Positions 30,188 through 33,153 of a DNA stretch of 58,756 nucleotides are shown piece by piece (positions within the stretch are counted from its first letter, which is position 1; each line of letters opens with the position of its first letter). The stretch is from positions 1-58,756 of the forward strand of contig MFDN01000011.1 in NCBI GenBank assembly GCA_001776935.1, given 5' to 3'. The DNA comes from Candidatus Daviesbacteria bacterium RIFCSPLOWO2_01_FULL_39_23. Lineage in GTDB: Bacteria; Patescibacteriota; Microgenomatia; Daviesbacterales; UBA10151. The notes below the pieces were generated by a model. The model did not search any database. It was given only the letters and a program-made list of their open reading frames with translations, and had not been told where the DNA came from. Position numbers and translations under genes: made by a program.

Positions 30188-30829
30188 TTAGGAGCCTTTT
30201 CCACTGCTTCCGCTGCCACCGCTGTTTCCATTTTCATCTTTATTTCCGTCTTCACTTTTTCCGCTTTTGGTTATCTCTATGGCTCCCTGAAGCTCTTTAG
30301 CGCATGAGGGGTGTTTTTGTATTAAGCTTTCAAATTTACCGCGGTGATCATCCAGTCTTTTTTGAAAGTTTTCATCTTTTGAGCCTGATTTTTCCAGATC
30401 CCCTCTTACTTCAGATACATTTTTGCTATACTCTCCCACTGTTTCTAAAATCTTTACATGCACTTCCTGCTGTCTTAAACTTTTTTCTCTTTCCAACTTT
30501 TCTTCTTTTTCCACCAATCCCATGATTTCTTTAACCCGGTTTTCAACCGGCATATTTTTATCGTTACTTAACAGTGTGACAACATTTTCGGAAGTCCTCT
30601 TCAAAGGATACAAAACCTCCCCGGGGAGAGCGGCTTGTGTCATCTGCACGCTAAAAGTCCCAGTTGCAACCAAAAGGATTACGGAAAAAATCACGGAAAA
30701 TGCAAATAACCTCCGGGAGTACCTTTGCCGGTCAATCCTTTGTTCCAAGCCTCGCCAGCCTGACTCTAAAAGAGTCTGAGGTTCTATATCTAAATAATCT
30801 TTTTTCAATTTTTTTAATGAGTCGTGCAT
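30188..30829 (-). CDS. DUF5667-like membrane protein, likely anti-sigma partner
   Basis: TQAALPGEVLYPLKRTSENVVTLLS; directly follows the sigma gene; single TM. Confidence 0.75.
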   Translation of the reverse strand: MHDSLKKLKKDYLDIEPQTLLESGWRGLEQRIDRQRYSRRLFAFSVIFSVILLVATGTFSVQMTQAALPGEVLYPLKRTSENVVTLLSNDKNMPVENRVKEIMGLVEKEEKLEREKSLRQQEVHVKILETVGEYSKNVSEVRGDLEKSGSKDENFQKRLDDHRGKFESLIQKHPSCAKELQGAIEITKSGKSEDGNKDENGNSGGSGSSGKGS

Positions 30830-30830
30830 A

Positions 30831-31367
30831 TTATTTTCCTCCCATAATTTTTTTTAATTTCTTAAGAGCCCGAAATATTAAAACCCGCACATTTCCATCT
30901 TTTTTCCCCAAAACCTCGCCTATTTGCGATATCGACAGTTCCTCAAAATAGCGGAAGATAATCAGCTGTCGGCTGTCACCATCCAATTTTTGCAAAGAAT
31001 TTTGTACGTCTTTCCTATTTTCTTCTGCAACTAATTGCTCTTCAATATCTTCGCTCGAGGCAATGTTATCCTCCATTTCAGGACCAATTCTTGATTCTTT
31101 TTTCTTCCGGCTGTAATCAATTACCACATTTCTGGCAATTGCAAACAAATACCCGGAAAAAGTACCCTTATCTTCCCGAAAGCCGGATATAGACCTCCAT
31201 ACCTTAAAAAAGGTATCCTGGGTCAAATCCTGAGCAACAGCAGTATCATATACCATATAATAAATGAACCTGTATACTTTTTTTAGATATAAAGTATAAA
31301 GTTTCCCGAACGCCTCCTTTCTTCCTTTTTTAGACTGTCTAACAAGGTATAAAATTTCCGTTTCCAT
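30831..31367 (-). CDS. ECF-type RNA polymerase sigma factor
   Basis: VYRFIYYMVYDTAVAQDLTQDTFFKVWRSI; region 4 LIIFRYFEELSISQIGEVLGKKDGNVRVLIFRALKKLK. Confidence 0.93.
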   Translation of the reverse strand: METEILYLVRQSKKGRKEAFGKLYTLYLKKVYRFIYYMVYDTAVAQDLTQDTFFKVWRSISGFREDKGTFSGYLFAIARNVVIDYSRKKKESRIGPEMEDNIASSEDIEEQLVAEENRKDVQNSLQKLDGDSRQLIIFRYFEELSISQIGEVLGKKDGNVRVLIFRALKKLKKIMGGK

Positions 31368-31495: not shown

Positions 31496-31912
31496 ATGAA
31501 CTGGAAAATGTTAACTATTCTGCCCATACTGGCATTGGCGCTGTTTGCAGCTCCGCAAGTTTGGGCTCATGGAGGCGGTGACATTGACGTAGAAGACATC
31601 CTGGGTTTTGACGAGGATGCAAGAGTAAAAATCGAAGTCAGAGCTGACGAAGCACTGCCTTTTGTTGTACCTACAACAGCCGGTGTAACTACACCATTCA
31701 TCATAGTTGATGAGGATGAAAATAGGCTCAAGATTGAAGCCAGAGGCTTTGCAGCACATCAGCTTGCACCACTTTTGGTCGACCCGATGGGTGTCCAAAC
31801 CATCACTCCTTTCGTTTTAGGTGATGAGGATCAAAGGTTGAAGATTGAAGTAAGGGGAATGGGCGCAACCATGTTGCCAGGAGTTTTACATAACTTAAAC
31901 ATAGTTAAGTAA
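31496..31912 (+). CDS. secreted protein with three imperfect internal repeats
   Basis: Signal peptide; DEDARVKIEVRADEA / DEDENRLKIEARGFAA / DEDQRLKIEVRGMGA; SD AGGGGGTG. Confidence 0.8.
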   Translation: MNWKMLTILPILALALFAAPQVWAHGGGDIDVEDILGFDEDARVKIEVRADEALPFVVPTTAGVTTPFIIVDEDENRLKIEARGFAAHQLAPLLVDPMGVQTITPFVLGDEDQRLKIEVRGMGATMLPGVLHNLNIVK

Positions 31913-31940
31913 ACTCAGGGCTAAATAAAGGTGTTCTAAC

Positions 31941-31983
31941 GCACTACCGGAAGATTTGCTCAAGTATCCGGTAGTGCTTTTTG
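31941..31983 (+). terminator. rho-independent terminator
   Basis: GCACTACCGGA...TCCGGTAGTGC-TTTTTG. Confidence 0.85.
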
Positions 31984-31986
31984 TTA

Positions 31987-32016
31987 TTGACAAATTTTGT
32001 CTGCCGGGATTATAAT
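31987..32016 (+). promoter_or_regulatory. consensus sigma-70 promoter
   Basis: TTGACA-N18-TATAAT. Confidence 0.8.
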
Positions 32017-32022
32017 AAAACT

Positions 32023-32332
32023 ATCCTAAAGGGCATTTTGTAGATGGCCTGAGGGATTTATCACGCAGAGCATTCGCAATGTGTGACTGCCCTGCTTAGT
32101 ACGTTTAAAGCCAAAATATTTTTCTTCACTGATTCGTAACTTTTTGGGAGTTTGATGTATCCGATGGATCGCATTAAGCGACATCAGATCAGAACACCCA
32201 CCTTAGCATTGCTGAGGAGGAAATTTGGCTCAACGACCAAGTAGGGAGGAATTATCTTTTTGAGTGTTTTGGGTATGTTTTGACCGGTCTTTTGTCTGTT
32301 ATTTACTCCGTGGACAACAAAGTCCACTTAAT
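32023..32332 (+). ncRNA. structured noncoding RNA candidate, unidentified
   Basis: No ORF; many nested helices (AGGGCA/TGCCCT, TCAC/GTGA, three-way junction 32154-32185, hairpins 32201-32217 and 32310-32327). Confidence 0.6.
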
Positions 32333-32392
32333 TTCCAGTTGTTAAATTTTCATTTTGTACTTTGAGCTTAAAATTGATAGAATAGAGCTTGT

Positions 32393-32464
32393 GCCGACGT
32401 AGCTCAGAAGTAGAGCAGGCGCTTTGTAAGCGTCAGGCCGGGATTGCAAAATTCCCCGTCGGCT
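32393..32464 (+). tRNA. tRNA-Thr(TGT), atypical D-loop and T-arm
   Basis: Acceptor GCCGACG/CGTCGGC, anticodon loop TTTGTAA, 72-nt spacing; T-arm GGGAT-TGCAAAA-TTCCC. Confidence 0.7.
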
Positions 32465-32523
32465 CATTCGATAGTATATTTACCATATTGACTTTTCGGG
32501 CTATTTTCGGGTACTTTAATAAT

Positions 32524-33153
32524 ATGCGTCTTGTTTTTTATGATGATCCTGACTATAAACTCAAACAATCAATTATCACAAAAAGAGCCTGGAGAGATGG
32601 CAAACTTAACTCCTTAATCAAACCGCATGTTAAAAAGAGGTGTAAAAACCCTGCTTGTAATAAAATATTCTCTACCAAACCCTATGATCCTAAAATATAT
32701 TGTAGCCATAGTTGTTCTGCCGCTATAAGCAATCCTAAAAGAAAACATCTTCATTTCTGTTTCACCTGCCAGAAAGAAATAAAAAGATCTTCTTACAAAT
32801 ATTGTTCTAATTATTGTCAATGGAATAATTATTACAAACAATATATAGCACGCTGGAAACATGGTCTAGAAAATGGAGTCATTGGTATAAATACTAAAAC
32901 GATATCTGCCTATTTAAGACATTACTTAAAAGAAAAATACAACGATAAATGTTCAAAATGCGGTTGGGATCAAAAACATCCAAAAACATTAGTTGTCCCT
33001 TTAGAAATTAATCATATTGATGGAAATGCAGAAAATAATAAAGAAGATAATTTGGAATTACTTTGCCCTAATTGTCATGCTCTAACCCCAAATTTTAGAA
33101 ATCTCAATAAAGGCAATGGCAGAAATTGGCGGTTAAGAAAATTGAGGAGTTAA
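32524..33153 (+). CDS. HNH endonuclease with N-terminal Cys-rich zinc-binding motifs (track ORF starts inside the tRNA)
   Basis: CSKCGWDQKHPKTLVVPLEINHIDGNAENNKEDNLELLCPNCHALT. Confidence 0.88.
   Translation: MRLVFYDDPDYKLKQSIITKRAWRDGKLNSLIKPHVKKRCKNPACNKIFSTKPYDPKIYCSHSCSAAISNPKRKHLHFCFTCQKEIKRSSYKYCSNYCQWNNYYKQYIARWKHGLENGVIGINTKTISAYLRHYLKEKYNDKCSKCGWDQKHPKTLVVPLEINHIDGNAENNKEDNLELLCPNCHALTPNFRNLNKGNGRNWRLRKLRS

Follow-up and report, generated by a model that had tools for sequence, protein, structure and literature searches.

The window, that is, the whole stretch of 58,756 nt analysed here from an uncultured Daviesbacteria genome, carries on its forward strand a promoter, a structured region devoid of long open reading frames and a tRNA gene, the features of which are collected in Table 1. 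The terminator which a sequence-only reading of this DNA had placed ahead of a consensus promoter is evident as a hairpin of GCACTACCGG (31941-31950) and CCGGTAGTGC (31968-31977) with a T-run, and the promoter itself, TTGACA-N18-TATAAT, agrees with the consensus at 12 of 12 positions (31987-31992 and 32011-32016). As also described there, the following stretch is free of coding sequence, with no open reading frame of 40 or more amino acids on the plus strand within 32022-32335, and the 3' hairpin GTGGAC..GTCCAC could be located at 32310-32327, where it is terminator-like but weak. The gene just upstream (31496-31912, +) encodes a small secreted-looking protein with a signal peptide-like start and the internal repeats RLKIEARG / RLKIEVRG, for which no Pfam match was found; divergent from it, genes for an ECF sigma factor and, behind it, a DUF5667-like protein occupy 30188-31367 on the minus strand. 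The downstream tRNA-Thr(UGU) (32393-32464, +) has an unusual T-arm, GGGATTGCAAAATTCCCC, without the usual TTC; L003, L011 and L017 have a near-identical T-arm, and all four tRNAs go unreported by ARAGORN. In G000, a 23S rRNA match (L130, G000:C6:79044-83274) spans 4231 nt relative to a model of 2925 positions and a partial 16S rRNA match (L129, G000:C4:39-1086) spans 1048 nt relative to 362 positions, and since these spans far exceed the model positions, they suggest large rRNA insertions.

Table 1. Features of the 6S RNA locus and its immediate surroundings, in window positions.
Feature	Positions	Strand	Basis and remarks
Terminator-like hairpin and T-run of the upstream gene (31496-31912)	31941..31984	+	sequence; stem GCACTACCGG/CCGGTAGTGC
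Sigma-70 type promoter TTGACA-N18-TATAAT	31987..32016	+	12/12 consensus; start inferred near 32022-32024
Conserved 5' leader hairpin AUCCU..AGG..CAUUU / AGAUG..CCU..GGGAU	32022..32057	+	GUAGAUGG at 32040-32047
Variable spacer	32058..32089	+	predicted local hairpin 32061-32086; length and sequence differ among relatives
6S RNA domain (SsrS-like)	32090..32255	+	RF00013 42.2 bits; R1 138 bits
Closing stem, 5' strand CCCTGCTT.AG.ACGTT.AGCCAAA	32090..32115	+	fold and covariation
Central bubble, 5' half; predicted product-RNA template	32116..32144	+	RF00013 alignment; analogy
Apical stem GGG(AG) ... CACCC	32145..32199	+	fold and covariation
CACCCACCU block common to RF00013	32195..32203	+	alignment
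3' central-bubble hairpin CCUUAGC-AUU-GCUGAGG	32201..32217	+	fold; covariation (22 sequences)
Closing stem, 3' strand UUUGGCU..AACG..AAGUAGGG	32224..32246	+	fold and covariation
Weak hairpin of terminator type, at which the primary transcript may end	32310..32327	+	poor T-run: TTAATTTCC
tRNA-Thr(UGU), downstream neighbour	32393..32464	+	Rfam scan

6S RNA is a widespread bacterial RNA that ties up RNA polymerase. Judged from its sequence, the domain at 32090-32255 (+) is a divergent member of this family (SsrS, RF00013), although the sequence-only reading had set 6S RNA aside by eye and had presented the transcript as an unidentified structured non-coding RNA. The RNA seemed unidentified because the default Rfam scan of the window yields three tRNAs and nothing else. 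In a permissive scan of 31700-32700, RF00013 matches over its full length at 32086-32251 with 42.2 bits (E 6e-7), slightly under the curated cut-off of 46.4 bits, which is why the default scan omits it. The RNA is thus indeed structured, non-coding and equipped with its own promoter, but it is identifiable, and the comparison with Rfam in substance assigns it to a known family, at a score under the curated cut-off. RNase P RNA, tmRNA and SRP RNA, to which the reading had likewise been unable to match it by eye, give no match in 31700-32700 at E values up to 10. Among the other Rfam families in the permissive scan of this interval, only tRNA and 6S RNA rose above noise. At E up to 10, RF00013 has no second match in the whole genome of 1.28 Mb, which also encodes a housekeeping sigma factor (389 bits, above its cut-off). 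In the alignment with RF00013 the blocks GGGAG and CACCCACCU, both located at the bubble, are common to the window and the family, and the CACCCACCU block is visible also in other CPR 6S matches; among 22 aligned relatives the GGG is near-invariant and the CCCACC block is kept.

The proposal of a structured RNA was borne out by folding, the 314 nt giving a z of -3.95 and 32090-32251 a z of -5.14 relative to shuffles. The predicted fold is a rod with a closing stem, a central bubble whose 3' half contains a hairpin, and an apical stem beginning with GGG/CCC. In the closing stem, CCCTGCTT..CGTT..AGCCAAA pairs with TTTGGCT..AACG..AAGTAGGG, and this pairing of CCCTGCTT with AAGTAGGG replaces the previously suggested helix between AGGGCA (32030-35) and TGCCCT (32088-93), which is not conserved because relatives usually read AGGACA, with ATCCCT or TGCCCT as the partner. 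The 3' half of TGCCCT, CCCT, forms the 6S closing stem together with AGGG, a pairing seen in 22 of 22 sequences. Other helices of that reading fared differently: CCTTAGC-att-GCTGAGG (32201-32217) was confirmed as the 3' central-bubble hairpin, which is conserved; TCAC/GTGA (about 32060-32086) forms a hairpin in the prediction, although it lies in a spacer that varies in length and sequence; and the supposed three-way junction at 32154-32185 lies within the 6S apical arm, its putative branching being peculiar to this sequence. The rod-like fold is supported by covariation in the aligned sequences. Across 22 sequences, 94.7% of the cells were paired and 14 of 33 pairs changed on both sides, with none of 500 shuffles as good (a count that is not to be read as a probability), and in a 56-sequence alignment (A3), which was fitted to a covariance model, 90% of the cells were paired and two-sided changes occurred in 27 of 33 pairs, the kind of covariation in related CPR genomes for which the sequence-only reading had suggested looking. 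This family-wide conservation with covariation, together with the z of -5.1, makes it extremely unlikely that the locus is no gene at all and the fold a chance product of intergenic DNA.

Searched at the DNA level, 22 of 95 genomes proved to contain the locus, among them every genome of the same genus. In the aligned relatives the promoter precedes a leader that is conserved, a spacer whose length varies, a further conserved domain some 160 nt long and then variable sequence often containing hairpins. TTGAC and the -10 box align among relatives, a promoter-like match is present at 39 of 40 family loci, and in many relatives a tRNA gene likewise lies downstream of the 6S RNA. The covariance model R1, built from the 22 aligned domains of the own family only (Candidatus Daviesbacteria and relatives, CPR), scores 138 bits on the window, which is itself among its building sequences. 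Within the class, R1 has matches in 64 of 328 genomes; almost every sampled member of the own family is among these, the others are scattered over many further families, and homologues exist in other Microgenomates families as well. In several homologues the corresponding place is likewise matched by RF00013 (L014, 42.8 bits; L011, 39.9; L010, 29.9; L084, 34.1; L093, 42.5), and L096 reaches 47.7 bits, above the 46.4-bit cut-off, with R1 scoring 43.7 bits at the same place. R1 also covers part of the RF00013 match L115 (21.7 bits), which comes from a CPR genome not belonging to this class, and the E. coli 6S RNA (ssrS) is not matched by R1, which is a lineage-specific model. One 6S locus is present in the own genome according to RF00013, and two R1 matches are present in G005. 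The second 6S-like copy there (L074, G005:C13:1140-1299; R1 84.8 bits) is without the AGUAGAUGG leader, and the two copies are a possible 6S-1/6S-2 pair.

With strict filters RF00013 gave matches in 2 of 138 relatives and, across the phylum, in 20 of 286 genomes, 3 of them above the cut-off, counts that understate the distribution because such filters drop weak matches. Since RF00013 exceeds its cut-off in other CPR genomes (G372, 60.2 bits; G536, 56.3; G500, 55.4), a 6S RNA in CPR bacteria is not itself strange, but it is under-called. In the open-access papers covered, we found no treatment of 6S RNA in Patescibacteria, the Candidate Phyla Radiation, Microgenomates or Saccharibacteria; the one paper that mentions both 6S RNA and Patescibacteria deals with SRP in mitochondria.

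The sub-threshold Rfam score, the failure of R1 to find the E. coli RNA and the extra leader could also be read as signs of a separate new RNA class that is merely 6S-like, i.e. rod-shaped as Ms1 RNA or Corynebacterium CoRP RNA, and that evolved independently; polymerase-binding RNAs other than 6S do exist (PMC11077062). Ms1 and CoRP RNA of Actinobacteria are structured and bind RNA polymerase; Ms1, described as a structural relative of 6S RNA, binds to the core enzyme and not to polymerase carrying a sigma factor (PMC9130861, PMC11077062). However, unlike Ms1 and CoRP RNA, with which it was compared only via the Rfam scan, the window RNA has both the sequence and the structure to match RF00013. 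This match is full length and includes the common blocks GGGAG and CACCCACCU, several family members match RF00013 independently at the same place, and the homologue L096 exceeds the 6S cut-off, which renders an independent class very unlikely. Jointly, the observations are in all probability best explained by a Daviesbacteria (Microgenomates, CPR) 6S RNA gene encoding a promoter-mimic rod, plus a family leader. The window RNA shares with 6S RNA/SsrS (RF00013) the full-length rod, GGGAG and CACCCACCU, an own sigma-70 promoter and a length of about 165 nt, and differs from it in scoring under the cut-off and in the family leader with GUAGAUGG ahead of the 6S domain.

In known 6S RNAs the rod mimics an open promoter and holds the housekeeping holoenzyme until it is freed by product-RNA synthesis (PMC8876501, PMC8414754). 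By analogy, the housekeeping promoter at 31987-32016 would give rise to a transcript starting near 32022. Its 6S domain folds into the rod, the central bubble of which would mimic an open promoter, and would bind RNA polymerase carrying the housekeeping sigma factor. Release of the RNA would probably follow once the polymerase has used the 5' side of the bubble as the template for a short product RNA, and from the RF00013 alignment we infer that this pRNA, 5'-AUCAGUGAAGAAAAA..., starts at U32133. When the predicted pRNA site was blocked in folding, P2 stayed zipped and no new helix appeared. The short hairpin in the 3' central bubble is predicted in the free window RNA, as in Bacillus subtilis 6S-1 RNA (PMC8876501), whereas in 6S RNA of the E. 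coli type a 9-bp 3'-bubble hairpin arises only upon pRNA synthesis (PMC8876501).

While the kind of RNA is thus already known, the leader between promoter and 6S domain looks new and lineage-specific by its sequence, and its part at 32022-32057 still matches no known family. The distance from the -10 box to the 6S domain is 73 nt in the window, and the own family generally has tens of extra nucleotides here, compared to a 6S start a few to about 25 nt after the -10 box in other Microgenomates families. The leader, with its almost invariant GUAGAUGG, is present at 34 of 40 own-family loci vs none of 17 loci of other families; 4 of the 40 had been fetched via the leader itself, and of the 16 family loci that came from R1 only, 11 carry the leader. 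Two further occurrences, in G012 and G044, were found via a pattern of promoter and motif, and both have a 6S domain directly behind. In the own genome the leader is single-copy, no second one being found elsewhere. Across 45 genomes the pattern TTGAC-N-AGTAGATGG matched 6S loci together with scattered sites, several of them resembling coding sequence, and in named records the leader pattern occurs in Candidatus Daviesbacteria and other Microgenomates/Patescibacteria. In the gap between promoter and 6S, another Microgenomates family has a short leader of its own, GTTCACAGGAA(A/G)C, which is conserved and differs from this one (L080, L085, L087, L088, L091).

In Daviesbacteria, GUAGAUGG lies inside a single hairpin, UCCU..AGG..CAU / AUG..CCU..AGGA, and covariation within this Daviesbacteria-type set alone is weak to modest. 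More distant members have the motif between two hairpins, H1 and H2, whose sequences are quite different and whose pairing is kept, as in L075 (GUCCUUAAAAAGGAC-AAAGUAGAU-GGCAAAAAGCC) and L123 (UGCCCCAAAAGGGCA-AAGUAGAU-GGGUUC..). Summed over 11 segments, the folding energy was -89.7 vs -30.7 upstream and -82.1 vs -36.8 downstream, in each case below 300 of 300 shuffles, a result favoured by the fact that leader segments and their ends were picked by eye. No conserved complement of AGUAGAUGG was found in the 6S body, the 3' tail or the 16S (partial) and 23S rRNA stretches of the own genome. The strong conservation right behind the -10 box in Daviesbacteria would also be expected of a leader conserved as DNA, e.g. 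as a transcription-factor site just after the start site. However, in distant members the stems around AGUAGAUGG change on both sides with the pairing kept, which points to the RNA level and makes a DNA site improbable.

At the RNA level, the leader could be a separate small RNA or regulatory unit on the common promoter, e.g. an attenuator or a protein-binding control of 6S levels, which is compatible with the 6S identification. Its own hairpins and motif are consistent with such a unit, as is the variable-length spacer before the 6S domain, which sometimes contains repeat-like inserts; but the leader, where it could be placed, stands ahead of a 6S domain, and no T-rich terminator is evident from leader to 6S in the aligned sequences, so that we regard a separate unit as possible without being probable. 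The inserts themselves are palindromic (CCTGAGC..GTCGAAGGAC) and were seen between leader and 6S in L009, L011, L013, L021 and L072. Returning to the leader as part of the 6S transcript, our guess is that it most likely acts in 5' processing or stability of the RNA or as a protein-binding element, in which case the exposed AGUAGAU might be cleaved or protein-bound, thereby yielding or protecting the mature 6S RNA. A bolder and rather doubtful version would make the leader an independent, family-specific RNA module in a two-part RNA consisting of a hairpin, the exposed AGUAGAU(GG), a second hairpin and then the 6S domain. If true, this module would have a protein or a second RNA as its binding partner and would make the level or the release of 6S RNA depend on a signal, a type of 6S control of which we found no description in the open-access literature.

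In summary, the locus points to the retention, in the highly reduced CPR bacteria, of an RNA that regulates transcription globally and is being missed, and the leader of the Daviesbacteria family provides 6S biology with a specific new element that is testable.
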